NCBI RefSeq assembly: GCF_032362555.1 | Contig: NC_083511.1 | Coordinates: forward strand, 2,790,001-2,854,000 | Source: Amyelois transitella | Taxonomy: Eukaryota; Arthropoda; Insecta; Lepidoptera; Pyralidae | DNA length: 64,000 bases | Direction of reading: 5' to 3' | Position numbers and translations under genes: made by a program | Shown: in pieces, positions 21,144-64,000 of the stretch | Layout of the letters: every line of letters starts with the position of its first letter | Numbering within the stretch: the stretch's first letter is position 1 | Notes under the pieces: generated by a model | Seen by the model: the letters and a program-made list of their open reading frames with translations, nothing else | Told to the model about the DNA's origin: nothing | The model's database searches: none

Positions 21144-24100
21144 TTAAGAAAAATCGTATTCGGATTCCAGTGTATCTGTGGTATTAGACATGATGTCTTC
21201 CAAAGTTGAGACTGGTGATGTTTCGCGACGATTTATACTAATTGGGTTTGATGAATTACAAGCTGTTTGATAGTTAGTTTCATAAGACATTGTAGCTTGT
21301 GGTTGTTGGGCAGTTTGGTTATAGTTAGCGTCGTAAGATGTTGCTGTCTGGTACCCGCTATATGACTGGAATGGTGATTGATGGAAATCTGTTAAAATCT
21401 TTAAAACCCCGCTTTGAAATAGCAAGGTCTGGTGGTCATTTAACTTGTTGAGAGACGGTAAAATGGCTTTAAAAAATGACAGGTGTCGATTTTCAGAAGC
21501 AGCTAAAGTTTCGACGATTTGCTTCTCAAATTCATCGCAACTTGGTTTTCGTTTTAGCGTAGTTTTTCTGTAGGGTTGATATCTTGACCTTGTGTTCGGA
21601 GTTTGAGATTCTTCTTCTATACTATCTTCAGTTAAATTTGGTGCATTTTTTTGTAAAAACATGAGTTGTCTATACAAATGATATTCTTTTATACGTTTAG
21701 CACCAGCTCCAGATTTCTTTGAAAGTTCTACCTTCTTTGTATATTTGAAAAAATTATCCTTAATGTTAGTCCATTTTTTTATGACGTCATTACCTGTAAC
21801 AATCGTTATAAAAATAGAACTGATAATAAAATTGCTTTTATAATGGTCTGTAAAATTTTAAGAAATGTTTCTTTTGCAGATTTTTGGCAACAGGGAATTC
21901 ATTCAGAGATATGGAATTCACAGATTATCGTGGAAAATCTACAATTGGAAAAATTGTACGAGATGTTTGTCGTGCTATATGGGACATTCTTTTAAGTGAA
22001 AGTATACCGAAAATATCCGAAGAGCGAATTGAAAAAATAGCTAAGGATTTTGACGTAAAAACAAATTTCCCGAATTGCATGGGGGCATTGGACGGGAAAC
22101 ACATCCGAATATGTAGTCCTGCCCACAGTGGGTCCCTTTTTTTTAACTATAAAAGTTTTAACTCTATAGTCTTGCTGGCACTGGTGGATTCTAAGTGAGT
22201 CGTGTAGGATCAAAATCGGCTATCTGAGTTATGGCTGAAAAGTGACAATATAAAAAATAAACCCTTTAGGACTGTTTTTCATTTTTACATCAAAATTTTT
22301 GTTTGCAAGACAAAATTATCATTAAAGAATTTACAATTTAACTCAAAGTCTGTATTAAAGTTGAATGTTTAGATACGGCAGGTGTTTATTTTGTGCAGAT
22401 AGCCACATTTGATACTGAACTTTGAAAATAACCGTATTTGAACCTGAGATATAGACAAATAGCCACCTTTGATTCCAAGCCAATGACAAATAGCCATGTT
22501 TGATACTAATAAAAAAAAAGTAAAATAAGGGTTGTCACTAAACAATATCATGAGTAAGTATTATTTTTATTTGACACCACTGGGGTATTGTTAGTGATAT
22601 TGTTACTCAAATAGTGGTTCGGATAACAATATCACTATCAATAAATGTTAACAAACAAGCAGTAAATTATATAATATTTAATTATCAACAAAATTAAAAC
22701 AAGTGAAATTTTAATTCCCAACAAAATTAAGTTTTTTTTTTGTATACATAAAAATGAAATTAGAATTTAATAACATAAAAATGAAATTAGAATTTTCAAC
22801 TGGATAAAATTAACGTAACAACAAAATTAGAAAGAAATGATATTTTAATTTTATACTTTATACTTAAGTTACAGTGAATTAAAATGAAATAGGTAGGTAC
22901 TTAGTTTTTTTTAAACATGAAAATGAAATAATGACTTTCTTAAACTTAATACAAAATTTAATGCAATGTTTTTTAAGTAATAAAATTAGATGGTACCGGT
23001 GACCTTCGTGCATTTTTATCACAGAGCAATGAACTTCGCGCGCGGCCGGACTAGAGACGAAAGTTAGTCAAGGGTCATTATCATTAAATTCCAAAATGCG
23101 ACGTTTGGCTGTCAGCTTAGACTATTCAGATGCATTACTTCTGTAATAATTAGTGTGGGTAAACGGTGACGCCCACTGAGACGTTGCTTTTTAAAGAATT
23201 TGTCGACAAAGGCGCCTCTAGTAGCGCGCGAGCGACACGGTGATTCAATGCTCTATGATTTTTATATACGAAGATCACAGGCATCATCTAATGGTTCTTC
23301 GCAATAATCTTGAATTTGCTCTTCTGGTGAAGCAATAAGAGACTCTTGTGACATAAATAAATTGTCATAAAAGGCCAAAGTTTGTAACTCCTTCCACGTA
23401 GGGCCAAAGTGTTTAACTAGCAACTTATTTACATCTTCCAGTTTATTTTTGTTTACAGGTACACCACTGAGTAAAGTTTGCGGCTCAATCATACTTATTT
23501 TCTTGCCCTTTTGGCATACATTGGCCGCTACTGCAACATCACTTTTATAGAAAAGTTCTCCTCGAACCAGGACACTGCCTGGCTTTTTCGACCGTTTTAA
23601 AATGAACCTTTTGCACTCCTTGAACTTCATAGGCCACGATGTTGTCTGTTTGACGACATTTTTAACGGACTTTCTCCAGTCCTTAACAGGACAATCTTTA
23701 CCGAATTCCACCAAAGTGGCCGTTTCAGTGATTATGTCTTTGATCTCGTTGGGGTGCAATATTACTTCAAGATTTTTCAGTTTTTTCTCAATCACTCCGA
23801 ATACTCTATCTGCTGGCATGTATGAGTGCCCCGTCACTGGAAACACTATTTCTATTTTTTTAATAGTATTGTTTTTTAGCAGCCAACTACAACACGTACC
23901 AACTAAAATACTATTTTTATTTTGGCCTCCGCAGCCGTCAGCAACCAATCGAATAGTGTCGATATTAGTTTTATCTGTTTCGGTTAAACGATGGTAGACT
24001 GCCGATGAAACTAGATTAGAATCCTTATTATGTTCGTTTTCAGTACATACATATGCAAAAATACGTTCTTTTGAAAATGGAAGAGTAGAAGATCCTTCCA

Positions 24101-27100
24101 CCATGGTGAAGTTGTATAAGTATAATTGCCGGCTGTAATACGTGCTCTGATCGGGCAATTTAGGTAGGGGCAGATTTTTTTGGCAATCAAAGGATATTAC
24201 TTTCAATCCATCAGATATTTCACGTAATTTCTCAAAAAATGCTTTTGCTCGCAACGTATGTACTCGTTTTTGAGTTATCAGTTCGTTCTTTTTTTGCGGG
24301 TCACTTTCATTTTTTAACTTCTCTGTTAGTTGTAAACACATTGAACAGACGTCTGTTTTTGGCGATCCAAAACCGATATTGTAAAATTTGTTAAAAATAC
24401 AACGAAAATACGACTTTTTTACCTTAGAATTTGCAAATTCACTGCTCTTATATATTATAAACAGTTTGTTAATATTGAGCTCTGATGGTAAATACTGTCT
24501 CTCTGCGAATTTGCTTTTTCTGCAGTAGTGTGACTCAACACACTTTAATTTTTGAATGAATGCGTGAATAGATTGTTTCTGAGCATAGTATTTATGTTCT
24601 TTGTGGTTCCCACCACGCTTTTCGGTAGGAAACTCGGATGTGTAATAAAATCTATTCATTACATATGCCACTCGGTGTTTCGTTACACCAAATATGGACA
24701 AAAAGAATTTTTTGCAAATCGGTATTTTTTTTCCTTTATCCAAAATGACGTGATATTTTGTGGCAGTTTGTCTTTGTCCTTTAAATCCTTGTCTTTTATA
24801 AGCTGTGCTTTGCACCGAACAATATTTTAAAATAAGTGCGTCTTGCTCTTTTTTTTCACTATGTGCATAAAAGTTGCGGTGCAGTTTCATGATTTGGTCC
24901 ATTGTCAACTTTGCACACTGTAGCGCTTTTGATAAATGGTTACAGACTCGTTCAGGCGCAGATTTAGAAGAATACCTAAAATAGATAAGTAAGTTCTTTA
25001 TCTCGATAAACAATACTTGGTAGATGATGTTTATGATATCCATTTTATTGTTATAGTAAAAATTATAAATTATTTAGCTAAAATTATAAATAGAAATCCA
25101 AATTCTTAATAAATAAAATATTAAATTACAATGAGATTGTGGCACAGCCCTAGTAACAATACTAACCTCATTCTTTTAGCAACATTTCTTTGCCATTTTT
25201 CGGGATTTCTGCGTCGTTTTCGAGAAAACTGATTAGTAACCAACCTAGGATTAGACTCCATTATTTCAATTTCAGTCAATATCTTTAGTAACACAAACTT
25301 AAACTGTAATAAATAAATAAAAATCACTCAACACTATTTGTGCAAAATACTGTGATCCGCCATAATGTCGCGCGGCAAATCGACGGCTGTGATTGGTTGA
25401 CGGATGAAGAAGGCCATGTTTGATTTTGAATCTTTACAGATAGCCGTATTTGAAAATGAACTCGGATTTGACGTGTATTTTGTATGAAAGATATCCATTT
25501 TTGATAGTAAATCAATGTATACGTTAGAAGCATTCAAAATTTTAAATGTTACCATAGTCAAAACTTATTTTTACCAAAATTTACAGATAGCCGCCTTTGA
25601 TTCTATACGACTCAAGTATAGATTTGTATATGTTGATATAGGATCGTATGGAAAGGAATGTGATTCCACCATTTTCCACAATTCAAAACTATACGAATTA
25701 TTATTGCAAAATCGACTTCCCATACCAGCGCCAAAGCCTTTACCGGGGCTCCAAAATTCAGTTCCCTATGTTTTTATCGCTGATGAAGGCCTACCGTTAC
25801 TTAACAATCTAATTCGTCCAGTGGCGTAGCGTGCATTGGCGGGACCCCGTATAAAAAATTGTTTGGGGGCCCTTGTATTGTTTGGGGGTAAAGATTTTTC
25901 ACAAAAGAAAAAAAATATTGTGAAAAGAAATATTTATTTATCATAACATAATTTAACCTTAATTTAAAAATTTAATTTTACAAATAAAAATCAAATTTTA
26001 AATATTCATTCGCCTTGCCTTTTTTTCGGCAAACTGATTTATTAAATCATTTATGGCTGATGATGATTTTAGTTTTTCTAAAGTTTCTACCTCTATGGAC
26101 AATAGTGAGAGGTCTGACAGCCGTTCTTGTCCCATCGAAGTTCTTAAGTAATTTTTTATCAGTTTTAATTTTGAAAAACTTCTTTCTGCAGTTGCGGTTG
26201 TAACTGGAAGGGTCAAGAATAAAAAGCATGCTGTGATTACCTCGGGAAAACTAGATGCAAGACTATTGAATTTTAGTAGCAATAATTCAATGAGTTCTTT
26301 AATGGAATAAATTTTTTGAATTTCAGATTTTAAGCATGTTTTTAGAGCCTTTAATTGGTCACAAAGATTAACTGAGATGTCTTTACTGTATTTAACCGAC
26401 AGTTTTTCGGAAGCGATTAATATCTCTTCGTTCGTTCTCCGGTTGTAATATTTCGAACATACTACTCAGGTCGCAAAGGCTCTGAAATCTTTCTTTAGTT
26501 TGAGAAATTAATATATCTAAACAGCAATAGTATACATTGACTTTGAAATAGGATTCCGGGTCGGAAATTCTCTCATCTTGTGATAACTCATCAAAAAAAC
26601 GCTTCGTTATCTTTCGCCTACTGTTTTTAAAAACAGTTGTTACCCCCCACTCTTTTGCTAAATCTTTGGACTCATTTAGCAAACTATTAAATGAAATCTG
26701 ATTTCTTAATTGGCACAGTCTATTTAAAAGATTACTTAATAAAATACTAGATTTCTGTAAGTCATTATTTTCATGCTGTAGAGCTTTAGAAATAGGATTA
26801 ATAATTTCAAATAGTGAAGAAAAAAATGTAACGAGCACTAAGAAATTATAACTCTCTAAAATATTAATTATATTTTTACATTCTTCACGTTCATCTTTTT
26901 TATTTGAAATTAAATTTAGTTGGTACAAAGTTTTCATGATAAGTAAAAAATTTTTCTTTACCGATAATAAAGCATCGTTCCTAGAAGACCATCTGGTTGG
27001 ACATACCTTTTTAAGGGTAATCAAATATTTTTCAGATGGATCGTCACTTAGCATAGCCCAGCGTTTTATACTATTGCCAAAAAAAGTATATATTTTTTCT

Positions 27101-40954: not shown

Positions 40955-43087
40955 TTATTCCAAAGGATTTGTCTTATCCACTGAAACTTCGTCGATCTCC
41001 ATTTCTGCTTCTTCCTCTACCGCTGATTCTAATAAGTCAATAGCTTCTGAAAATAATTTTAAATTATTGAATTTTGCATACTTTGGCCTGATGTGTGATA
41101 TATATGGATCCGAAGTTATTAAAAAGTTATGAAGAATGTCTTCATTATTCTGAATCCTTCCCATTTTCCGAGTGTGTTGCTCCCTTGTATTTCTAAATTC
41201 CTTATTTCTTGCTTCGGATGCTTCTTCCGACATTATTCCAATAGGCAGACAAGAGAAATGTCGGCAAATATCAGCCCCATGTATGAGCAGCTTGTGCACA
41301 CTTGCTGGCATATTGTACCATGGATAGAGGTGTACAAAAAGTTCAGCTGTCTCTCTGCAATATTCCCGGAATTTCTCGATGTTGATGGCATTCCCAGAGG
41401 ATATGACCTGCAAGATCACAGCGAAATGCCTAATGAGATTCTCATCAATCTTCGTAATCTGTGCACTCTTCTGGTATTCTCTGAAAAATTTTCTTGCAGT
41501 GTTGCCATCGTTCGTAGTTCCGAAGCCCTGTTTAACAATATCTATCAAGAGTCCCATCTGCTCTTTGAATTGTTGTTGCGTGAAATCCTTCCTTGCTTTC
41601 TTGAGGTTTTTATTTTCACCTCGTGCACACCACATCTCGAAGTCCATATTGTACGATATGTGCAATAGACACTCCATGCTTCTGATCCACATGTGAAGTG
41701 TAGAGAGTCCGTACTGGTACACCTCATCCCGAACTGGTCTTGAGAATACTTCTGGTAAGTTATTCATTTCACTGGGTTTTGCCAGACATATATTGCAAGT
41801 CGCTGCAGATGGAGTATCGGTGATGATTGTAGCTATCTTGCCATCAATCATCGTCATGTGCAGATCATGACTGATCTCGACTTCCCCGCATCTTGACACA
41901 GTCAGGTTTCGGATTTCTTCTTTCATCGCAGCTTCTTCTTGTTTGATGAATTCGCTGGTTTCCTTTGCGAACTGAAACTTCACTGGTCTACAGTAAAACG
42001 TGGAAGAAGGTTTTGGATTTTCCCAGATCAGCACATTGTCAGACTCAAGCTTTAATGGCACAAGACTCGTCATGAATACTGATGAATCATCGAAGTCAGG
42101 TTGCCCGCTTTTCTGTCTGTAATTACTTTGTGCTGAAGATCCGTCGAATCCCCATTTGCTGGTCATTTTTAGATGTCCATCTGGGAGATTTAGAGGTTCG
42201 CCAACAACTTGCAGGATCCTCTGTACAGTCAAATTCAGTAATGACTGCAATTTCACCTTTGCTCCATCTTCAGTTACTTCAATATCAGACGTATCCGGAT
42301 AGCATTTCTTCTTAGCTTTCAACAGTTTGTAGTACGAAGGAAGCTGTGCAGAACCTTCGTAGTTTGTCAAGAAAGCCCTTAGCGTCAAATATCTCCATTT
42401 TGACAAATCCAGTGAAGTAGCAAGGGCCAAAGCTTGATCTTCCTCGAGAGTTTCCTTCTTCTCCTTGTGAAACAAATATGTTTGAACTTCGTGTGCTCGT
42501 TCTGGGTTTTTCATAAGGTGCCCAATCACTTGGGCAAGGTCGATTTTTCCTTCCGATTTCAGGTTAGAGACGAGAGCAAAAGACAACTCATCTGCTGTAT
42601 AGTCAGTTAATGTACCTGACCGTCTTTTTTTTTGCTTGTTTCCCAGGTCAGAAAATGGTTTTCTGACCGGACTTTCTGTAGAAGTGCTCATATCCTTTGT
42701 AACAGAAGATGTGGATGGAGTGACGTAATCTGTAGGCTCTGGTAGCTGATTTTCTTCCTCTATGGTATCTTCAAAAATCTTCGCGAGATTCAGGTTATTG
42801 CACACAGGCCACTTGATTCTTTCCTCTAACCAGCCCATATGTTTATTCATAAATGTTTTCTGAGTTCTGTTTGCCGCGGTCCATCTGCGATTCAAGTTGA
42901 CAGTGATGGATCTTGAAAACTTTAATATTTCTTCAGAATCTTGGTCACAAACACTGAGTGGAATACCAGCCAAAATCGCTTGATGGAGCCTTTTATAATC
43001 CTTGAGGTCGCCTTCTCGTAGAAATATGTAGAAGTCCAAGTTGGTTTCAAATCGAGTCATGGTATGTAGATGATAATAGAGCGTCAC
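40955..43087 (-). CDS. RAG1/Transib-like transposase
   Basis: 710-codon open frame. RAG1-type features by residue: D315 in SKWGFDGSSAQSNY, D415 in MTMIDGKIATII followed by a zinc-binding-like TCNICLAKPSEMN (compare the CxxC after the second aspartate of RAG1), and E621/E622 in LPIGIMSEEASEARNKEFRN preceded by SVHKLLIHGADI and followed by TREQHTRKM. These match the DDE core of RAG1 and Transib transposases. The tail is acidic (AVEEEAEMEIDE). An in-frame stop lies just upstream, so either M10 (about 43060) is the start or an upstream exon was cut off by the Jockey insertion near 43139. No RAG2-like ORF seen. Confidence 0.85.
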   Translation of the reverse strand: MTLYYHLHTMTRFETNLDFYIFLREGDLKDYKRLHQAILAGIPLSVCDQDSEEILKFSRSITVNLNRRWTAANRTQKTFMNKHMGWLEERIKWPVCNNLNLAKIFEDTIEEENQLPEPTDYVTPSTSSVTKDMSTSTESPVRKPFSDLGNKQKKRRSGTLTDYTADELSFALVSNLKSEGKIDLAQVIGHLMKNPERAHEVQTYLFHKEKKETLEEDQALALATSLDLSKWRYLTLRAFLTNYEGSAQLPSYYKLLKAKKKCYPDTSDIEVTEDGAKVKLQSLLNLTVQRILQVVGEPLNLPDGHLKMTSKWGFDGSSAQSNYRQKSGQPDFDDSSVFMTSLVPLKLESDNVLIWENPKPSSTFYCRPVKFQFAKETSEFIKQEEAAMKEEIRNLTVSRCGEVEISHDLHMTMIDGKIATIITDTPSAATCNICLAKPSEMNNLPEVFSRPVRDEVYQYGLSTLHMWIRSMECLLHISYNMDFEMWCARGENKNLKKARKDFTQQQFKEQMGLLIDIVKQGFGTTNDGNTARKFFREYQKSAQITKIDENLIRHFAVILQVISSGNAINIEKFREYCRETAELFVHLYPWYNMPASVHKLLIHGADICRHFSCLPIGIMSEEASEARNKEFRNTREQHTRKMGRIQNNEDILHNFLITSDPYISHIRPKYAKFNNLKLFSEAIDLLESAVEEEAEMEIDEVSVDKTNPLE

Positions 43088-43270: not shown

Positions 43271-46003
43271 CTAATTTGGTCTTCCCGCGGGGTCAACAGG
43301 CGCTGCGGGTGCGGCGCCTGCAGTGGTGCTCGCTGTGATGACGGCTTCTCTGGGTGATGGCCAGTGTCTTCGGTCCGGCGGGCGAGCGTGCAGTGGCGCG
43401 ATGCCCACGAGATGCGGGTGCGCCGACCTGTCCGCCCTGCCGAACATGTCACTGGCCAGACGCGAGATGAATGCGTCCAGGCCCTCCCATTTAAGGTCCC
43501 GCTGGATCGTCGCGTTCCTCACGTACCGTGGGGCCCCGACGATGTCGCGGAGACTTTGGTTTTCTTGAGCACGGAGGCGACGCCTGTAGGTCTCCGCGAC
43601 ATAGGCGTACCACGCCGGGGCTGCGTACGTGAGGCGGGATCTGATGTACGTTTTGTAGATCCCGAGCTTCGTCTTCAGCGGGAGGCTGGAGGAGAGCACT
43701 GGACGGAGTCTTCCTTTGGCCGTCTTCACTGCTTGCACCACTGAGTCGACGTGGGTCTTCAGGCGAAGACCACGGTCGATCTTGACCCCGAGGTACGTGA
43801 CGTGTGGCTGCCACGCCACGTCCTTCCCGAAGAGCGTCAGGGGCGGCGGTGGGGCGGCGTTCCCGGAGATCAGAGCCTGCGTTTTCGCCACGTTCACCGA
43901 CAGTCTCCACTTGTGGAGCCAATCTGGCAGGGCGTCTAGCGCTTTTTGGACTTTCTTGGCGGCGTGCTTCGCGCTCATGGATACCGCGAAGTACGCCGCG
44001 TCGTCGGCGTAGAGGGCCAGCTTGGCTCCATCTGCGACCGGAATGTCGTCGGTGTACGCGGCGTAGCAGGCCGGGCTCAGGCAGCTACCCTGAGGAACGC
44101 CAGCCCGGACGGGTTTCTCCGTTGAGAGGGCGTCTTCGACCGCCACCCTGATCTTCCGCTCGTTCAGGAAGGAGGCCACAATCCTGATGATTCTTCTTGG
44201 AATGGGGCTCTTCGACAGTTTGTACAGCAACCCCTCGTGCCATACTCTGTCGAAGGCCTTTTCGTTGTCTAGGAGCACAACAGCCACGGTCTCCTTACGG
44301 TTGGCGGCGACTGAGATTTCGCCGAGGAGTCTGGCGATCTGGAGCGTCGTAGAATGTTCAGGCCGGAACCCGAACTGCTCGGCGCGCGGTGGAATGTGCG
44401 GCAGCATGAGGCCGAGCAGCAGTTTCTCAAACACCTTCGAGAGGGCGCTGAGGAGCGTGATGGGCCGGTAGCTTTCAGGCATGCGGAGGTCCTTCCCCGG
44501 CTTGGGCAAGAGGATCACCCTTCCGGTTTTCCATATGTTCGGGTAGTGGCCCGAGCGCAGAATGCCGTTGAAGAGGCGCGTCACCGCCGTGATGAATCCC
44601 GGCGGTAGGTGGCGAAGCGCCTCGTTCGTGACGTTGTCTGCGCCCGGGGCTTTCCTGGGCTTCAGCTTCAGGATGATCCTCTTGACCTGGCCGGGGGTGA
44701 AGAACACCGCGTCTTCATGCTCCGGCACTGGCTCCGCAAGGTACTCCCGAAGGTGCTCGACGACGCTGTCGTGGTGGGCCTGGTCCACGACCGGGTTCGG
44801 CGTGAACTGACGCTCCAGATGTTCGGCGAAGATCTCAGCCCTGTCTTCGGCCTTAAATCGTGGGAGGCCATCGGCTGCCAGCAGCGGCCGGACGGGTTGT
44901 GGCACACCCGACAACTGCCGGCAGAGGCGGTGAACGGAGGGGATATCACCGCCCACCGATATGAGGTGGTTCTCCCACGATCTGGCTGCGTGCTCCTGTA
45001 GTTTGTCCTTTACGGTCTCCACCAGCTTGTTGAGTTCGGCTTTGAGTGTTGGGCAGCGAGTACTCATCCACAGCCTCCGCATTCTTCGCTTCCGCTCCAG
45101 TAGCGCGGTGATGTGCGCCGGGAGCGGCTCGGGTTTGGCGGTGGCCGGAACGGGCATCCGTGCGGCATCGAGAGCGTGCTGGATGCTGTGGGTGATAGCA
45201 CTCGCCGCAAGCTCGACCTCTTCACTGGTGGAGACCCTCTTGAAGGCGACACTGGCCTTGTCGCCTTCAATTTCCTCTCCGTAGTAGTCCCAGTTGATTT
45301 TGGACGTTCTCCTCGGCAGCGAGACCCTCGCCGGAAGGTCCCGGAGGATGAGAAGAACCGGCCGGTGATCTGATGGCAAGTCCGGGTAGACGTGCAGTGT
45401 TGGCAGCGCTGTCAGCCCTCTGTGGGCCACGATGTCGATGATGTCGGAGCCTCCCCTGGTGTCGGTGTGAGTGGGTTCGTCCGGCCCCAACAGCTCGAAG
45501 TCGTGGTCCACAGCGGCCTGGTGAAGGCGTCTTCCGCATCGGTTGATCTTCGTGGAGTTCCAGGCTGTGTGCTTGGCGTTGAAGTCGCCAGCCACAAGCG
45601 TTGGCGTGGTGGTGTTCAAGAGGGACCACAGCTCGTTGGTTTTGAGTGTGATCCCTGGCGGAATATAGGTCGCAAACAGCCGCAGCTCGCGGCCGGCGAC
45701 GCTGACGAGCACACCAAGGGCGTACATCGTCTGGAACTCCACGTGTGGGATGGGCTGGTGGATAACGTTGCGCTTCACCAACACTGCAAGTCCCCGGTAG
45801 GCTTGTCCATTGACCGGGCTCTTCTCATCCTTTCGGTAAGTGATGAAGTTCGGGATGCCAAATTTTTGGTCATCCCGCAGGTGGGTCTCGCTGACGAGGA
45901 GGACGTCTATGCGCTGCTCCCGGAGGAAGTTGGTCAGCAGCAATTTTTTCCCCTGGAGCGATCCCGCGTTCCAATACACTATCCTCAGAGACGTACCATC
46001 CAT
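43271..46003 (-). CDS. Jockey ORF2: endonuclease and reverse transcriptase
   Basis: 910 residues. The apurinic-type endonuclease comes first (IVYWNAGSLQGKK, SETHLRDD, AGDFNAKHTAWNS, GGSDIIDIV, PSDHRPVL), then the reverse transcriptase (KLKPRKAPGADNVTNEAL, YRPITLLSALSKVFEK, EQFGFRPEHST, DNEKAFDRVWHEGL, GVPQGSCLSPACYAAY, catalytic YADD in KLALYADDAAYF, YLGVKID). The end (YAAPAWYAYVAETYRRRL) is typical of Jockey; there is no RNase H. Nicks target DNA and primes reverse transcription of its own RNA. The ATG follows the ORF1 stop after only two bases. Full length for the clade and uninterrupted. Confidence 0.94.
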   Translation of the reverse strand: MDGTSLRIVYWNAGSLQGKKLLLTNFLREQRIDVLLVSETHLRDDQKFGIPNFITYRKDEKSPVNGQAYRGLAVLVKRNVIHQPIPHVEFQTMYALGVLVSVAGRELRLFATYIPPGITLKTNELWSLLNTTTPTLVAGDFNAKHTAWNSTKINRCGRRLHQAAVDHDFELLGPDEPTHTDTRGGSDIIDIVAHRGLTALPTLHVYPDLPSDHRPVLLILRDLPARVSLPRRTSKINWDYYGEEIEGDKASVAFKRVSTSEEVELAASAITHSIQHALDAARMPVPATAKPEPLPAHITALLERKRRMRRLWMSTRCPTLKAELNKLVETVKDKLQEHAARSWENHLISVGGDIPSVHRLCRQLSGVPQPVRPLLAADGLPRFKAEDRAEIFAEHLERQFTPNPVVDQAHHDSVVEHLREYLAEPVPEHEDAVFFTPGQVKRIILKLKPRKAPGADNVTNEALRHLPPGFITAVTRLFNGILRSGHYPNIWKTGRVILLPKPGKDLRMPESYRPITLLSALSKVFEKLLLGLMLPHIPPRAEQFGFRPEHSTTLQIARLLGEISVAANRKETVAVVLLDNEKAFDRVWHEGLLYKLSKSPIPRRIIRIVASFLNERKIRVAVEDALSTEKPVRAGVPQGSCLSPACYAAYTDDIPVADGAKLALYADDAAYFAVSMSAKHAAKKVQKALDALPDWLHKWRLSVNVAKTQALISGNAAPPPPLTLFGKDVAWQPHVTYLGVKIDRGLRLKTHVDSVVQAVKTAKGRLRPVLSSSLPLKTKLGIYKTYIRSRLTYAAPAWYAYVAETYRRRLRAQENQSLRDIVGAPRYVRNATIQRDLKWEGLDAFISRLASDMFGRADRSAHPHLVGIAPLHARPPDRRHWPSPREAVITASTTAGAAPAAPVDPAGRPN

Positions 46004-46005
46004 AA

Positions 46006-48369
46006 TTAGAGGTTAGGGGTGGGTACGCCTCTGAGGGGGGCCGCGGGGACGAGGGCGGCCAGTAGTGCCTGCATCTGTTGCACCGACTGCACCAGCGCGT
46101 AAAAGTGCTCTGGTGGGATCGGTGCAGCCGGGGCAGGCGCGGGAGTGGGTTGCGGCGCCGGGGGAGTCGGCACGGCCGCTTCTTCTTCCGCCACGGGGGC
46201 AGAGCTCACGGCGGCGGCATTCTTCTTCTTCTTCTTCTTCCTTTTCTTTTTCGGGAGCTCTGCTCCCCTGACGGTCGGTGGGTTGGCGGGGGCCATCAAA
46301 GAACCCTCCGCTGCCTCGGTTGTGGTGTTTCGGGGCGTGGGGGCGGTACCGCTGCGAGCGACTGGGCCAGCCCGTCTGTTCCTTGCTTCGCGCCGCAGCA
46401 CCGGGCAGGACGAGTGGTTGGCCGGGTGCGGTCCTCCGCAGTTCGCACAGGTGGCGGGCTGGTCCAAGGGCCGCTCGCATTCCGTGGCCTTGTGGGGCCC
46501 GCCGCAGCGTACGCAGACGATTGATCGGTGGCAATTGACCGACGAATGCCGGAACAATTGACACCGGTGGCACTGGGCGGGTCCCTGTTTGCCCCTCCAC
46601 GCCTCGATCTTCAATGTTGGCCAGTGGAGAAGTTCCTTCACGGTGTACACCTCCTGGCAATTTGGAGTCCGTGCCAGGAGGGTGAAGAAAACGCATCCAG
46701 GGCGATCTCCCCTGCCCCGGATGGCTTTGATGGCCTCCACCTCATAGCCCTTCTCTTCCAGATCTTCTTTTAATGCGGCCTCCTCGGTGTCTGGCGGCAG
46801 CCCGCGGATGGCCACCTTCAACGGTCGGTCTGATGGCAACGAGTATGAGTGCCATTGCACGTCCAGCGTGTTCATGTAGCGCTGGACAACTCGATACTCG
46901 TTGCCGTCCCTCGGCGTGAAGTGGACGCCTCTTCCGCGCGCGACGGCGGCCGGCGAGCGTCCCAGAAGGCGGCTTATTTCCTTAAAGTGGGCCACCCAAT
47001 TGGGTAGGTGGTCCACACAGATACGAGGGTAGCGCGGCTCCCGGGGCGCTTGTGCCGACGGCGGGGCGGCTGAGGCGGCGGCGGCGGCGGTGAAGGCGGC
47101 TGCGGTGGCTGCAGCCGTGGTGGAGGCCGCAGCTGTGGCTGAAGTGGAGGCGGCGGGTGCCGAGGTGGTGGGCGGGGCGCGGGGCACTGCTCCCCGTTGT
47201 GCCCCTTTCCTTTGAGGCAGCGGGGCTCCGGTGCCGGCCGCTACCCGGGCAAATGATACCGCGGGAGCGGCCAGCGAGGGCGGCGCGCGTTGGGCGGATG
47301 CGTGGGCGGGGGCCTGGGCGGGCGCCTGGGCGAGCGCCTGGGCGGGCGGGCGAGCGGCTGCTTGAGCGGGCGCCTGGGCGGACGGGCGAGCGGCCGCTTG
47401 GGCGGGCGCCTGGTTGGGCGGGCGGGCGGCTGGTTGGGCGGCCGCTTGGATGGGCGGGCGGGCAGCTGGTTGGGCGGGCGCCTGGTTGGGCGGGCGGGCG
47501 GCCGGTTGGGCGGGCGCCTGGTTGGGCGGGCGGGCGGCTGGTTGGGCGGGCGCCTGGTTAGGCGGGCGGGCGTCTGCTTGGGCGGGCGGGCAGGCGGCTG
47601 CGTGGGCGGCCGCCTGTGTGGGCGCCTGGGCGGGCGCCTGGGCGGACGCGTGGGCGGGCGCGCGATTTGAGTCCGCCCCCGCTTGGGCGCGGCGCGGGTC
47701 CCGGGACTGCCATCTCGGGATCGCCGATCTCCCGGCCGGCGGAGGCTTCATCTTTGTTTCGGCGGCGGCGGCGGCGGCGGCGGCCTCCGAGCCGCGCTCC
47801 GACGCCATCGTAGCCGCGCGCTGCAGGGGGCGGCGGCTTGCTTCCGTCACCGTCAGGTCCGCCATAGACCCCGACGACGACGGCTCCTGTGTGGAGGAGC
47901 GGGACTCCTCCTCCCCCATGTTGATGGCGCGCGGCTTCTTCTTTTGGCCTTCTTCATCAGGGCTGGCCGGCCTCTTCAGGAGGGAGGTAATTACCCTCCC
48001 CCTCGGCGTTCCCATATCGACGGGGGGGAGTGCAATCACCCCCCGCCTCGCTGAGTCCAGCGCCGTCAGGTCGGCGACCGACGGGGCGACCCCCCGCACC
48101 TCATTCTCTTTGAGGCGCAGGTATACGGCCATCCATTGGGCCAGCCCCGGCGACAGCCAGTTCCCCTTCACTAGCCGGACGAGAATCTCCGCGTCCCTCT
48201 TCATCCATCCCTTTGGGGACAGGGACGCGAGGGGCGCGGGTGTGGATGCGGCGGCGAGGGCGGCGGTTGCGGCGAAGGCGGTCCTGACTGCCGCGGAGGC
48301 GGCGGTGGCCGGGGTGACGGCGCTGGCGGCGGCGGTGGTGGCGGCAGCGGCAGCGGCGGCGGAAGAAGT

Positions 48370-48404
<35 letters not shown>

Positions 48405-48768
48405 CGGCCGCGGTGGCGGCAACGGTGGTGGTGGCGGCGGTGACGGTGGTGGTGACGGCGGCGGTGACGGCGGCAGTTACATCAGATGCTGCTGCGGTCG
48501 TCGTCGTCGAAACTGCTGCGGCGGGGGCCGCGGCGGCGGCATCGGCGGCAGTTAGCGCCGCGGCGACAGCAGCGGCGGAGACGGCGGCGGCGGGCGCGTG
48601 AAAAACGCCCGTCGGCGTAGCATACGCCGCTGGTGGCGTATGCGCTAGGGCGATGTCGGGGGAGGGGTGCGGGGGACCCGCACCTACCCCTTCCCGGGGG
48701 GGGGGCTCCATTTCGGAGCCCGGACGACGCGCGGGAGTGGAGTCGCTCCCGTGCAGCCGAAGGAACAA
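46006..48768 (-). CDS. Jockey ORF1: RNA-binding gag-like protein with expanded Ala/Pro region
   Basis: 920 residues. The N-terminal third is extremely alanine-rich (runs of A/T/V). A repeated proline-rich segment follows (units like PAQPAARPPNQA, about 15 copies). The conserved part comes next: YPRICVDHLPNWVAHFKEIS, VAIRGLPPDTEEAAL, GRGDRPGCVFFTLL (zinc-knuckle-associated domain), then three knuckles (CHRCQLFRHSSVNCH, CVRCGGPHKATEC, CANCGGPHPANHSSC), and a Lys-rich run (PKKKRKKKKKKN) likely acting as nuclear signal. Binds the element RNA into RNP particles. Much longer than usual Jockey ORF1 because of the repeat expansion. No stop. Confidence 0.92.
47290..47670 (-). repeat. GC-rich coding tandem repeat in Jockey ORF1
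   Basis: Units of GGCGGGCGGGCGGC(T/C)GGTTG and GGGCGGGCGCCTGGTTGG recur in near-identical 36-48-bp blocks. They code for APAQPAARPPNQ on the minus strand and produce long spurious open frames on the plus strand. Confidence 0.85.
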
Positions 48769-57540: not shown

Positions 57541-60500
57541 TTAATGTATATTGTCCTCGGACCATGGATTAGCAAGACATTCTTCAACACTAACAACTGG
57601 ATAAGCATCTTGCAGGTCAGTTGTTGGTACTGTGCTTTGTTGAAAATCAACATCGGTTTCATCAAGCCACTCGGTGTCATCATTTTCGCGCACAACGCAC
57701 AGAATTTCTTTCGATCTGCCGATTGATCGTCGCGTGAGGATGCGTGAAGGACGAACATTGTGCATCTCTACGCTATTACTGCTGCTCGGATTAGGTTGCT
57801 TGTGACATGAATTTACATGTTCCTTAACTTTCTTCTTTGTACAGAAGTACAATCCACACCACTGGCACGTCCTTTCCAAAAGTTGCCGACGATCCTTTTG
57901 CAGACTAGGGCAATACAGGTCATACGGCAATTTGTTAAAGCCATCATGCGTTGGGGTGATTCCAAGAGACCGACGCAGAAGAAATGTAGCAAACGTCTTG
58001 CCATCATGCTCTTGAGGCTTCGGAATATATAGACCACTAGACGACTGCAAAATTGGGTAAGGAGGAATAACGAAGCGTTCAGGAAGAATAGATCGAAGAG
58101 AACTCCGCAAATCTCCACAGCAAGCGCGGTCATCACACTTTACCACCTGGTAATGATATTAAGATATCTTAATCATATTAGATAAGAAAAGTAAATGATA
58201 AAATAATAATAAATGAGATTTTACTAATGTACCTGAAGCAAATACTGGCTCTCTCGCACATGCTCGCTGTACCACTGCAGAGAAGGCAAGTCTGGAACAA
58301 AGCTTTCAGCAGTGTCATCGGGCTTAAGGTACTCTGCTACGACGTCATGGCCGTCGATAACCATATTATTCCATACTTCTGCGAGAACTTCTCCAGCCTT
58401 CTGAAAGTTCATTTTTTCGAGATCATGATCCTTTGTTCTCCCTTGTTCATCCAAATGAGTTCCATAAGAATCATGCGGAAGTATGAGTCCAGATAATTCC
58501 CGGCTTAAAGGCGCCATTCTTCTCTCAACACGGTTGAATGCGCTTCTGCCGGGTGCATTCGTAAAAATGAATATTGCATCTAAATCATGCTTGACAAAGT
58601 GGTGTATGGCATGGGAAATAACCTTTGGATATCTCGGGTTTTCATCGGGTCCTCCATCAGATGAAATCAGAACAACTGGTTTCAGGCGTCCTTCTTCATC
58701 CCGCATAATTTCCTTGAAATTGTTGAGTGTAGCAAGCTTATTGAAGTCCACAGCATGAGTGGAAGCTGTCGAAGAGGAATGTTTGCCACTTCTAATCGCC
58801 ACGTATGTTGGCCCTGAATAAGTAATTGCTTCAGCACGGCCCATGTCATTTCCTTTTATGATGCACCCAGCATATACACTAGGGATCAATTTGTGCCTTG
58901 TAGCAATCACCCAATCATGATCAGGCAATGAGACACGATATTCGACATGCATCAGGAGAGGAGCTTGTTTATTTGCCGCTGTCAAACCTATAGGTACCCG
59001 GGCTTTATCGTCTTGAGACAAAAAAAACACTTTTTTTGGCCCGAGAATAGATGCCAGCGTTTCCAAGGATCTTATTGTGGCGACACAAAAATGTTGATCG
59101 ACATGAGCCTTGTGGTGATCTGCCTCAGGGCGACTCAATTTGACAGGCACAGTGACTACATGCCTTTTACCCTCCAAGGTGGTATAATTTCTAGGGAGCA
59201 ATCGAAGATACGTGCCACTCTTCGAAATTTGAAATCCGTGCTCCTTTAGCTTTTCATGGAGGTCAGTAAGTGTTCGGCAACTGCGAACAATTTCTGAGCG
59301 ACGCCGTTCCTCCGCAGAAGCACCAAACATAGCCAAATCGACTATAGTTTTTAGCAATTGCGGTTGTTGCTCTTCTAGGCGTGGGCGACCTGGGGCAGAA
59401 CGCGCCTTAAGAAGATCAGCTACAATCGGACTCTGATTGCAAGCAAGTTTAATCTTTGATTTTATTGATAATCTATGTGACTGGGAGTGACGCATATGTT
59501 GTTCCTTCTTCCGTAGTTCTTTTGTGCATTTATCAATTTCTCGGCGCAGTTTCGTCACATCACGTGTCTCATTTTCGCCCAGAAAATCCCTACGACGAAC
59601 AGCTAAGTCCAATTCCATTTGAAGAAGAGAAATCTGATTCTTCAACTTATCCTGTGCAGGAGTAGCACGTACAGGCTGCAGTATAGAGCTGCTTGTACTT
59701 GGTGTATCGGGTGAATTCTCGTTGCTACAATCCAAATCTTCACCTTTACGTTTCCGAGCACCTGGAATGACCGACATTTAAACAACAAGAAAACATTGAA
59801 ATTCTTAATTAGAATTATAATAATACTAGCTTTTCGCCCGCGACTTCGTTCGCGTAGACTTCAGGTTATATCACGCTTGGAAAAATTTCGCGCATTAAAA
59901 TTTTGACGTCGAAAGCGTACCAGACAGACAGACTTTCGCATTTATAAGATTAGTAGGAATAAATAATTGGCTGCTTAAATAATTACTGATATTGCGAATT
60001 TGGTATGTTTATTACCTGTTGAGGTGCTTTTAGTAGTGACATTACCTTCGTCAGTAATTTCGGTACCGATCGGTAAGACGCATATCGCAGGCGTAGGAAG
60101 TTTTACAGGTAGATTTGGCTCATTGGATGTCATTGGCAAAACAGAATTATTTTCGCTGGCATTCTGAAAATTAATAATTTAATTAATATCGTGAAAGTAA
60201 AGATAATATCGTGCAAACAAATTAACCATGTCCAGTAATGTTATTTTTTCTTTTATTAAAATAAGAGTTCGAAACGGCACACAAACCATGCACAATCCTC
60301 GCATTTTCACTAGAATAATGTGTATATAATTATATGTAGGTATGATCCATAAATAGTTGTAAGTTTTCACAAAGCGACAAGATATTAGTATATAAACAGG
60401 CGCAAAATGTGTAACAATAGTAACATAACCTTCACCTTATAACCACCACCGCGACTTACGGTTTATTTTGTTTTTTTACGTTAGATAAACCCATGCCTCA

Positions 60501-61303
60501 TAGACATGGTTCTCAGCTCAATACACCTACTTCTTTAGAGTTCAGCGATCGGTGATATGTAGGCATATGGGCCACGTGATGTTTATTCAGCATTTTTTAT
60601 GGAATGACATTCCTGTGCGCCAATGACTAGCTAAAACTATTAAAAATCTAGAAATTTTTTGAATAACTTTTTTATAATGTAAAAATAAAAAAAAATCTTT
60701 TGGATTTAAGTAATACTTAAAGTACGCTATACATATTTTATCTATATTTTTTCCTTAAATTACCTATCTAAAATGTTGGAAGACTTAACAATAACATTTA
60801 TATTACAAATCCATACTAATATTATGAATGTGAAAGTCTGTCTGTCTGTCCGTTCTTCACGGCTAAACCGCTGGACCGATTTTTATGAAATTTGGTATGG
60901 AAATAGTTTGATACCCGGGGTCAAACATAGGCTACTTTTTTTTTCAAAAATGAAAGTTACTATGAAAAAAGTCGCGGGTGAAGCCGCGGGGCAACAGCTA
61001 GTAAACTATAGATGAAGTCGTATTTATTAGGACAACGCCCTTAAACAGACAAATACTAGTTTAATAGCTTACCTTTTTAGAATTAGAGCAATAATAGAGA
61101 ATATTGGAAGACTTCTTTGCTTGGTGCTTTCGGCGGTAATCTGCTAGAAGATCATTCGCCCACTTCACAAATTCTTGTTTTGTAGAATATTTTTGTTTTG
61201 CATTAGCCCACATCTCATTAAATTCTTTCTGAGCAATACTAGGTTTTTTTCCTTTCTTATACTCGGCGAAAAGGTCTTTATACAGATCACCTACTTTAAA
61301 CAT
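57541..61303 (-). CDS. four-exon unclassified DDE transposase-like protein
   Basis: Exons 61303-61073, 60163-60016, 59761-58233 and 58146-57541. Donors are GTAAGC, GTAATA and GTACAT; acceptors end CAG. All joins are in frame, giving about 837 residues. N-terminus: MFKVGDLYKDLFAEYKKGKK (helical). Exon 3: coiled-coil stretch, HTH-like AEERRRSEIVRSCRTLTDLH, then candidate catalytic D377 (FLSQDDKARVP), D495 (VLISSDGGPDENPRY) and E539 (SAFNRVERRMAPLS). Exon 4: a zinc finger (CQWCGLYFCTKKKVKEHVNSCH). The DGGPDENPR...APGRSAFNRVERRMAPLS signature recalls a dispersed, multi-copy eukaryotic protein family, probably a DNA transposon (Sola-type is one possibility). No terminal repeats identified, so a host gene cannot be excluded. 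Confidence 0.75.
59826..59958 (-). mobile_element. short non-autonomous Helitron in intron 2
   Basis: Minus strand TCCTACTAATCTTATAAATG, then AAAGTCTGTCTGTCTGG, ending with hairpin GCGAACGAAGTCGCGGGCG and CTAG at 59826-59829. About 133 bp, inside the intron between exons 2 and 3 of the gene at 57541-61303. Confidence 0.75.
60170..60805. other. intron sequence without recognised features
   Basis: Part of intron 1 of the gene at 57541-61303. AT-rich. No exon or transposon recognised. Confidence 0.5.
60810..61001 (+). mobile_element. short non-autonomous Helitron in intron 1
   Basis: Starts TCCATACTAATATTATGAAT after A and ends GTCGCGGGTGAAGCCGCGG hairpin, then CAACAGCTAG before T. 192 bp, complete, in intron 1 of the four-exon gene. 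Confidence 0.85.
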
Positions 61304-61942
61304 TGTTTTAATGAAAAACGGTAACGGTTTACGCATGTATTCGGCGCCAAAACAAGAGAATAACTGGCGGCCGGCGGCGGCGCGGCGCATGCGCGTGAGG
61401 CCTCCGTTCTATGTGCGTCAGAATGGCTGGTTGTCTGTGGCTTTGGTCTAAGAGAGTTGATCCAAAAATTGCTACATAATTGCTTATATTTGCTACATTT
61501 AATAAATAATTGCTACATACGATATATATCTAGAAATAAAATATTTTTTTTGACCAGCCATCCTGACGTTTGGTTGGCTGGTCACATCCTAGTTTAACGC
61601 CAAGCATGCACAGTTTCCTGAAATGTATTGCGTCAATAATTGCTACATATTTACTTCATTTATATTATTTAGCTGTAATTTCAAATATGTGTTAAATAAA
61701 CGATGTAGCAATTATTGAAATTATCCCAAGGAAAAGTGCCTGATAAAATAAAATAGGCAAATAGATGCAGTATTTTTTACTGAACAGCAGGCGGTTTGAA
61801 TTATTAAATGGCATGTTAAGTTAGTGGATAGTAAGAACATTATCGTAAATAAAAACAAAATGTGGGTTGTACTTATGTTTCAGTTTAATTATATTACAAT
61901 TAAAAAATATTAAATTTGGTATTGATTGATCTGATATTTACA
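61304..61942. other. intergenic interval with repeated ATTGCTACAT motif
   Basis: 61304-61440 is GC-rich (CGGCGGCGGCGCGGCGCATG) and could be promoter of the four-exon gene. 61455-61720 contains (A/T)TTGCTACAT at about 61463, 61483, 61505 and 61637, plus an inverted copy (GATGTAGCAATTAT) near 61700. CCAGCCATCCTGACG and GGTTGGCTGG flank it near 61553-61590. This looks like subterminal sequence of the element coding for the gene to the right. Confidence 0.45.
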
Positions 61943-64000
61943 TTATTTTTTCGCATATATTATACAATGTGGTATTAGCTTCTTTTTACTCTTCGTAATT
62001 TTTTTCGATTCGTCATCATAACATATCCATTTTAAATTTCGTCTACAATGAGCTTTATAGTGACCAATTAGCGCTCCACATATTGGAGGCACGAACTCTA
62101 TTATTGCTAGTAAATGGAACTCAGATCCTTCTAACAATAGAGATGTTGGTGGATCATCTATTGAAATAAATTGATCGGAATTGAATTCGAATGCTATAAG
62201 ATCTCGTAAAGATACACTAAATGATTTGACACCTTTACATTGACTACGCCGGCATTCTGTAAGTTCTTGAGCATTAATTAAAGTATTTGCGGATACTTGT
62301 AAATCATTAATGGATGACGCTATATCAACGTGTAGAACAGGTATCTTACGCTGAACTTTATTTATTACACAATCTGATTCTGTACAATGTTCACGTTCAT
62401 CTGCACTGTATATACAGTCTATCAAAATGCGCTCAAATATATTATTTACATTGCACTCACATCTGACTTCCACAGAGGATTCTTTTTCAACTTTTGAAAA
62501 ATAGATTAGAGCCATTTCAGATCTTATTTTGTACACTTCATCTGTATTCCTTCCACTCATGAGTCTGACTAGTTTACAGAATAAATTTTCACTTTTATGT
62601 ATTATTTGACTTATCCGATAGCCATCGATATATGCTATAGCTAACGCCTGACATACCGAGTCAATCGCGCATGTATTCCTCAATATAATATTTTTGTTAT
62701 CAATTTTTAGCTTGCTTCCGTTAGACAAAAAAATAACCGGTTTCAAAGTTTTTCTTCTTTTAGTAACATTTCCTTTCCCTTTCCAGTTTTCGATGAAGGT
62801 AGGATCCTCGGAAAAAATAGAATCTTCTGTAAACTCTTCCTTCGGCTCCTTGCTAGACTTCTGCGTAGACGTTTTTGAATCTCTTTTTATTTCCTTTTCC
62901 TTAGTATGAAAATCAGCTCCAGTATTTTTTTTTAGAGTAATGTTCGGCAGTATCGATTTTCTCGGTGCAACCTTGATCTCTCCTTTTAAAAATTCTAAAT
63001 GTTTCATAATGAATTCATCTGTTCTTAGTCTGTGTGATTTTGTGCTTAGGTGTAATAGCAGTCTTTTTATTGTTTTAAAGTATGATTCGACATTTGAAGA
63101 AGTAGGTGCCTCGATATCGGAATCATAAATATTCTTCATTACGTTTGACCACAAAGGAAAAAGATTCAGTAAACGTGATAGAGTTCCTATAAAAGCAGGA
63201 TAGTGGTACAAATTGTCGTGATTGCCTATATCTTCAGTATCCAGTGTAATTAATATTTTTTCTGTTTCAACTTTGTTGGTCAACCATTTAAAAAATCTGT
63301 TCTCTTCACTTAATTTGGTATCAGTTTTATTTTCGAATACTGACTTTTCAGCTTTAGGCACATCATTTATTCTGTCACTCTCTTGAATCTCTATCTCTGT
63401 ATCTAGAGTCTGAAACTGATTCAATGTCTTTAATCGATTCTTAGCCAACTCACATCTAGAAGGAGAATTGGATTTATTACTGCCGTCGTGTTCATTCAAA
63501 CAAACTGTAATGATATCAGTCAATATTTCTTTGGATTTTTCAAAATTTACGCACTCCTTCAAAGCTAACAGGCATTTAATATAAAATAATTTGACCCTAT
63601 TGTCGACGTGCTTAAAACACGTTAAATTAAAAATTATTTTCACAAAATGACTAGTGTCTATTCTAATGTAGCAATCGTCGCTTTTTTCGTCTTCTTCTAA
63701 TTTTCTGTAGGATTCAATAGCATAATCTTTAGTAGAGTTATGTTTCGTAAAGGCCTTTACGCAAGCACCAATCAGCGCAGATGACTCATCGACAATGATT
63801 TCGTCTGGTTTTGGATTGCTCACGTGCCATGATTCCAGCCATTTGTATATTGTGTCCATAGAATGGCTTTCTGATACCATTTGGGTTACTGGGATACTAC
63901 TGTGACCTTCATATGTTTTCATTACACATACATAAAACAATATGTGTTTGGTAATTGTAACATTATCTATAGGCCCAAATGTTTTGAAAATGCTTCCGGT
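61943..64000 (-). CDS. transposase-like protein with C-terminal USP (deubiquitinase)-like domain, 5' partial
   Basis: Open from the window edge to a stop at 61943. The true start is beyond 64000: the frame reads on upstream through TGSIFKTFGPIDNVT. Residues counted from FYVCVMKTY (about 63934). Transposase half: QMVSESHSMDTIYKWLESW, candidate acids D51 (EIIVDESSALIGACVKAF) and D95 (YIRIDTSHFVKI), then E285 in SSNVESYFKTIKRLL, a D-D-E-like order as in MULE-type enzymes. After a Lys/Ser-rich linker (345-405) the C-terminus carries a Cys box (NTCAIDSVCQALA, C424), cysteine pairs (C494/C496, C519/C524, C563/C568) and a His box (GHYKAHCRRNLKWICYDDES, H627, D642). These are the landmarks of C19 ubiquitin-specific proteases. 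No terminal repeats assigned. Confidence 0.72.
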   Translation of the reverse strand, partial: TGSIFKTFGPIDNVTITKHILFYVCVMKTYEGHSSIPVTQMVSESHSMDTIYKWLESWHVSNPKPDEIIVDESSALIGACVKAFTKHNSTKDYAIESYRKLEEDEKSDDCYIRIDTSHFVKIIFNLTCFKHVDNRVKLFYIKCLLALKECVNFEKSKEILTDIITVCLNEHDGSNKSNSPSRCELAKNRLKTLNQFQTLDTEIEIQESDRINDVPKAEKSVFENKTDTKLSEENRFFKWLTNKVETEKILITLDTEDIGNHDNLYHYPAFIGTLSRLLNLFPLWSNVMKNIYDSDIEAPTSSNVESYFKTIKRLLLHLSTKSHRLRTDEFIMKHLEFLKGEIKVAPRKSILPNITLKKNTGADFHTKEKEIKRDSKTSTQKSSKEPKEEFTEDSIFSEDPTFIENWKGKGNVTKRRKTLKPVIFLSNGSKLKIDNKNIILRNTCAIDSVCQALAIAYIDGYRISQIIHKSENLFCKLVRLMSGRNTDEVYKIRSEMALIYFSKVEKESSVEVRCECNVNNIFERILIDCIYSADEREHCTESDCVINKVQRKIPVLHVDIASSINDLQVSANTLINAQELTECRRSQCKGVKSFSVSLRDLIAFEFNSDQFISIDDPPTSLLLEGSEFHLLAIIEFVPPICGALIGHYKAHCRRNLKWICYDDESKKITKSKKKLIPHCIIYAKK

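Follow-up and report, generated by a model that had tools for sequence, protein, structure and literature searches.

Peptidases of the ubiquitin and SUMO systems are found in several types of transposons. As far as the available text of the papers cited here and below goes, Ulp1 peptidases occur in several MULEs and OTU or Ulp1 peptidases in Ginger1 (PMC2836005), and Helitrons carry VTD and OTU deubiquitinases, the VTD class being characterized by an Asp-x-His motif (PMC9741609). A transposase_11 domain fused to a Peptidase C19 domain was mentioned in 2010 for the Trichomonas protein XP_001314237.1 (PMC2836005).

On the transposase side, arthropod MULEs have spacings of 60-76 residues between the first two catalytic residues (D1-D2) and of 120-214 residues between D2 and E; their longest lepidopteran transposase has 518 aa, and the main text of that paper, in its available form, is free of the words ubiquitin, protease and peptidase (PMC13359780). 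Rehavkus, a sister group or family of Mutator with insect and annelid hosts, has one ORF, a 9-bp target site duplication (TSD) and terminal inverted repeats (TIRs) of 26-400 bp; the main text describing it contains none of the terms ubiquitin, protease, peptidase, OTU or Ulp1 (PMC6446971). Related publications deal with Tetris elements (PMC4079207), Pack-TIRs (PMC8277862), Tribolium satellites with Rehavkus-1_TC (PMC10218199) and balancers with FB/NOF (PMC7642927), each cited from its available part; in the Tm1 paper (PMC3169594) no relevant term was found. Our search of the open literature, with subscription journals and Repbase Reports mostly outside it, returned no description of an element of the NOF, Rehavkus or MULE type bearing a ubiquitin-specific protease (USP).

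We analyzed a stretch of 64,000 nucleotides (the window, G000:C7:2790001-2854000) and searched the 327-Mb assembly of 33 contigs to which it belongs. The element at its end is a variant of the theme of a transposase combined with a peptidase of the ubiquitin/SUMO system. A sequence-only reading of this DNA had taken no USP-type peptidase to be described in DNA transposons, which is not strictly right in view of the Trichomonas protein. The latter is likewise a transposase fused to a C19 peptidase, but its transposase is of another family, and it is a single protist protein for which the available text gives no element, copies or conservation. The 2010 mention lessens the novelty of the present element, which is still substantial. 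Ginger1 and Helitrons also have a C-terminal or added ubiquitin/SUMO peptidase in a transposon protein but differ in transposase type and peptidase class. That Helitrons, Ginger, MULEs and the present family carry unrelated peptidases of this kind suggests that the ubiquitin/SUMO system is a common limit on transposition.

The transposon and its copies

The same reading had proposed one uninterrupted minus-strand frame between positions 61943 and 64000, joining an RNase H-like transposase to a USP-type (C19-like) domain. A frame check confirmed the 685 codons, and the joining of the two domains was supported by the analyses below. The ORF to which this frame belongs encodes 1031 aa and starts past the window end, with its 3′ two thirds falling within the window; the full frame has 1050 codons, 1031 of them counted from the first Met, and the TTG at 63940 is just the earliest start codon that the window contains, not the true start. 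The main features of the locus are as follows.

61403..61410, no strand: target site duplication TCCGTTCT, with its second copy beyond the window
61411..61678, no strand: perfect terminal inverted repeat of 268 bp, starting ATGTGCGTC, with several GCTACAT and GGCTGGT motifs
61411..64000, minus strand: window part of the family A transposon, with borders from four near-identical copies
61943..64000, minus strand: single ORF, C-terminal 685 of 1031 residues and stop codon (frame check)
62969..64000, minus strand: RNase H-like part of the transposase, residues 347-690 with insertion helices, D345 lying outside (alignment and model)
63086-63088, minus strand: E651, third catalytic residue
63647-63649, minus strand: H464 of the DxxH motif
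63656-63658, minus strand: D461 of the DxxH motif
63788-63790, minus strand: D417, second catalytic Asp

Both the TIRs and the further copies that the sequence-only reading proposed to look for were found. The whole element (G000:C7:2851411-2855622, 4212 bp) runs about 1.6 kb past the window end, and its window part is identical letter for letter to the matching part of L009, which is the window copy. The four full copies of family A (L009, L010, L011 and L012) match along exactly 4212 bp, any two of them differing by 1-3 mismatches, and their flanks are unrelated. Each starts with ATGTGCGTC, their TIRs are perfect except for one mismatch in L010, and their TSDs measure 8, 8, 8 and 9 bp. Family B comprises six 5018-bp copies that differ by 0-2 mismatches, with TIRs that match over 664 bp with at most one base off and contain the motif CCAGCAGGGCCC three times per end. 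The ends of families C (L013, L020) and D (L019, L021, L023) are ATGTGTGTC and ATGTGCGTG, respectively. The repeated TIR motifs are possible, putative binding sites. Among the 16 copies with defined ends, the TSD has 8 bp in seven and 9 bp in seven, within the approximately 8-11 bp of Mutator; the exceptions are L015 and L024, an adjacent family B pair sharing 7 bp between them. This pair (G000:C32, ~5.641-5.651 Mb) is an identical tandem with only CACGGAG between its members and CACGGAGAC in the outer flanks.

Intact frames of ~1030-1060 aa are present in families A, B and C, and the two longer family D copies examined have broken or split frames. L022, an internally deleted family A copy of 1627 bp, has a TSD yet no Cys box. 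This indicates that a copy does not have to encode the USP itself, which may be supplied in trans. A family D deletion derivative of 2532 bp (L023 3156-5687) is flanked by a 9-bp TSD; it keeps only a C-terminal open frame of 317 codons, encompassing the linker and the complete USP domain, which looks like an intact stand-alone USP ORF. A copy of family C (L020 1386-8517) has grown to 7132 bp by an insert with a 400-codon open frame.

The transposase half and its affinities

Homologues of the window protein were collected by three overlapping protein searches (23, 26 and 101 hits, 136 distinct ids), and conservation was scored in an alignment of 45 sequences, 39 database proteins and six frames from the same genome. 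Of the catalytic residues proposed earlier as D51, D95 and E285, the last stood and corresponds to E651 (conserved in 37/39, the other two being gaps at truncated ends). D51 turned out to be the second Asp, D417 (42/42), rather than the first, and D95 corresponds to D461 in a DxxH motif, whose D461 and H464 are each conserved in 40/41 sequences. D345, in SIDATG, is the first catalytic Asp; it falls just outside the window and is invariant in the 37 sequences that cover it. A full-length model of P0001 (87% identical; mean pLDDT 81.6, pTM 0.52) predicts an RNase H order of strands and helices with a helical insertion ahead of the E. Foldseek searches with the two-domain model gave weak transposase matches ranking below the USPs, to the P element (2.2e-3, rmsd 18.7) and Transib (8.2e-3), with rmsd of 17-19; an unrelated complex followed close behind the P element at 3.9e-3.

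The family shares with MULEs a DDE core, long TIRs, an 8-9-bp TSD and a distance of 71 residues between D1 and D2. Unlike them, it has a D2-E spacing of 233 residues, beyond the 120-214 range, and a USP instead of Ulp1. No Pfam transposase family scored above cut-off for the window protein or the relatives examined, and Pfam MULE had no match to the family, although the same model found at least 100 places in the genome, none at these loci. An hhalign comparison with 15 MULE frames from this assembly scored 21.8 (hhalign's own P, 0.078), compared with a best of 21.5 and a mean of 13.6 in 60 column shuffles and 16.0 for the reversed alignment. D1 and D2 fell into register unprompted, and E was out of register. 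We read this as a distant, unproven affinity of the transposase half to Mutator. Many of the MULE matches in the genome are near-identical to one another, which suggests that several young MULE families reside beside the USP element.

FB-NOF (Foldback) of Drosophila, which is reportedly non-autonomous, resembles the family in protein size and in its long TIRs with internal repeats. A relative from Eumeta japonica, P0126, bears the label '120.7 kDa protein in NOF-FB transposable element'; as it ends short of both the third catalytic residue and the USP, the name ties the transposase half only, and the link to NOF comes from that name. With Rehavkus as described, the family shares an insect host, judged from the named relatives, and a single ORF, with a TSD of 8 or 9 bp and TIRs of 268-664 bp here. 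Rehavkus reportedly has a PHD finger in its transposase. Some relatives, which we take to be beetle proteins, have at that place, between the two halves, a Znf_SCAND3 zinc finger that may be its counterpart; the window copy is without this finger. A minisatellite before the 3′ TIR is a Rehavkus trait, and no tandem array was found in L009, L014 or L013 (families A, B and C).

A USP-type domain maintained among relatives

The C-terminal part of the protein yielded a confident USP-fold model, with the following predicted features.

61946..62731, minus strand: USP-fold domain, approximately residues 770-1031 (structure prediction and fold search)
62012..62017, minus strand: third residue of the predicted triad, Asp1008 or Asp1009, in CYDD (alignment)
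62060..62062, minus strand: predicted catalytic His993, in GHYKAH (alignment)
62237..62254, minus strand: second zinc-finger cysteine pair, C929 and C934 (conservation)
62369..62386, minus strand: first zinc-finger cysteine pair, C885 and C890 (conservation)
62669..62671, minus strand: predicted catalytic Cys790, in NTCAID (alignment)

The boxes NTCAID, GHYKAH and CYDD lie where the sequence-only reading had placed them, its C424, H627 and D642 being C790, H993 and D1008. Alignment with the corresponding boxes of USP5 and USP21 predicts a Cys-His-Asp/Asn triad. In the 45-sequence alignment, C790 is conserved in 25/26 sequences and H993 in all 18, and position 1008 is D in 16 and N in two of 18. 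The paired cysteines, likened earlier to a USP zinc finger, are conserved in the family as well: C885 in 21/21, C890 in 14/21 (six of the remainder being alignment gaps), C929 in 20/20 and C934 in 19/20. A chance origin of the boxes is ruled out by the homologues, the conservation and the confident model.

The papain-like fold assumed in that reading was borne out by the fold search, which returned USPs, with TM-scores of only 0.35-0.46 and rmsd of 7-14. The domain resembles host USPs (USP30, USP46/12, USP21) and USPL1 in its predicted fold, Cys and His boxes and zinc cysteines but shares only ~10-16% identity with them over the aligned structures. Pfam UCH gave 13.6 bits against the window protein, below the cut-off of 23.9, and matched 4 of 40 members at E up to 10 (best, 2.1e-4); in the genome it had 66 matches, none at element loci. 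A single-sequence PDB search returned no match, and an NCBIfam search yielded nothing. OTU and Ulp1 had no match in the Pfam searches and were absent from the fold matches listed, an absence that does not argue against them. Membership in the VTD class was rejected, since the His precedes the Asp by 15 residues, in contrast to the Asp-x-His of VTDs. We consider it likely that the domain is catalytically active.

The fusion is kept by most relatives. The Cys box, whose absence from most homologues would have spoken against the earlier reading, is retained in 41 of the 47 homologues extending as far as the linker that precedes it. Among the other six, P0047 ends just ahead of the box; P0005, P0007, P0087 and P0118 end 34-71 residues past the linker, with tails that are hard to judge; and the gene model of P0081, with a His/Asp-like end, is missing the Cys stretch. 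In a second set of 26 sequences, chosen for the Cys box so that this box is no test there, seven are without both end boxes, and P0056 and P0117, with unrelated tails under the end boxes, were set aside; in the remainder, the His and the Asp/Asn are each conserved in 17/17. Near-duplicates occur within the sets (L013/L020, L019/L021/P0024, A/P0001). The two halves diverge jointly in a Mantel test that ignores shared ancestry. The named relatives point to an insect host, closest to moths and butterflies; other relatives presumably come from beetles and thrips. As relatives in other insects keep the fusion, the peptidase probably contributes to the mobility or survival of the element. The assignment also provides a predicted function for part of insect proteins annotated only as SCAN-domain, NOF-FB or uncharacterised; one relative, P0064, was already auto-named 'USP domain-containing protein'. 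We hold the anatomy of the transposon protein as described to be nearly certain.

Some observations concern the range of the family. P0024, from JGI metagenome contigs, is identical at 710/714 residues to the family D frame of L019, reflecting either host DNA in the metagenome or a recent transfer. Among viral structures, the closest fold to the full-length model, ranking above viral USPs, is that of the uncharacterised O92526 of Bracoviriform inaniti (E, 7.7e-11), which may be a transposase relative in a bracovirus. Three stretches fitted the pattern in an IMG/VR scan with P0001, with no relative among them.

Possible roles of the peptidase, and the rest of the window

The N-terminal helical and zinc-finger-like part would bind the subterminal repeats, and the RNase H core would cut and join with an 8-9-bp stagger. 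Brought to the transposon ends by its fusion, the tethered USP would clear both the transposase and the proteins present there of ubiquitin (or SUMO), so that the transposase and its DNA complexes would be spared degradation or extraction until the reaction is complete. This protection in cis is the role that we favour, tentatively. The element is a complete DNA transposon. On balance, we lean towards reading it as an autonomous-type copy of a young, recently mobile cut-and-paste family in the NOF/Rehavkus-Mutator neighbourhood, with a DDE transposase and a C-terminal USP-type isopeptidase in one protein and the tethered USP protecting in cis. A broader proposal, about which we are more doubtful, concerns the whole insect lineage, NOF/Rehavkus-like and possibly its own superfamily beside Mutator. 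An active USP-class isopeptidase might have been fixed in its transposase since before the moth, beetle and thrips elements split, freeing the element's transpososome or silencing factors of ubiquitin or SUMO; this would be a fourth peptidase class, after Ulp1, OTU and VTD, that transposons have enlisted for one and the same task.

The domain could instead be a SUMO isopeptidase of the USPL1 type that strips SUMO marks needed for transposon silencing in insect germ cells, acting against silencing rather than in stabilisation. We find this unlikely: C98 matched in one of 40 members, against the four of UCH, and the fold ranks do not separate C98 from C19, i.e., SUMO-type USPL1 from USP. Equally unlikely in our view, the peptidase would edit the ubiquitin or SUMO modification of repair factors or histones where ends are excised or integrated and so steer repair or chromatin. 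The fusion would put the enzyme at the break, and such a role was proposed for the Ginger1 Ulp1 and OTU domains (Bao et al. 2010, PMC2836005, in its available text), but no feature distinguishes it from protection in cis.

PAN2 and the Sad1-type splicing factor contain catalytically dead USP-fold modules. The domain might similarly be a dead binding module, or a passenger being lost, as the fold matches include both PAN2 and the yeast splicing factor and the sequence has strongly diverged from Pfam UCH; the near-invariant Cys, His and Asp/Asn of the two sets argue against this, and we regard it as improbable. An amplified host gene fusion, in favour of which there is only the labelling of some relatives' gene models as ordinary proteins, is ruled out for the copies examined by their TIRs, TSDs and dispersed near-identical copies. 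Between protection in cis and the other roles, the fused enzyme, young intact copies and a single mutable catalytic Cys make the long-standing question of what a peptidase does for a transposon directly testable in insect cells.

Other ORFs of the window, all on the minus strand, were also inspected. A 710-aa ORF (40955-43087) has a weak Pfam RAG1 match (E, 6.7e-4; 18.3 bits against a cut-off of 25) and is perhaps a Transib-like element. Two long ORFs at 43271-48768, one with RVT_1 and endonuclease and a PRE_C2HC-like first ORF, look like a non-LTR retrotransposon. A 593-aa ORF (23262-25043) matches Pfam DUF7869 (E, 1.1e-13), and two ORFs of 201 and 517 aa (57541-59777) are without a Pfam family. 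Probabilities in hhalign comparisons of the USP element (A2) with the RAG1-like, DUF7869 and 517-aa ORFs were below 1%. A 109-aa ORF (61061-61390) has its start codon ~20 bp from the site where the transposon inserted, possibly within the 5′ region of a gene.
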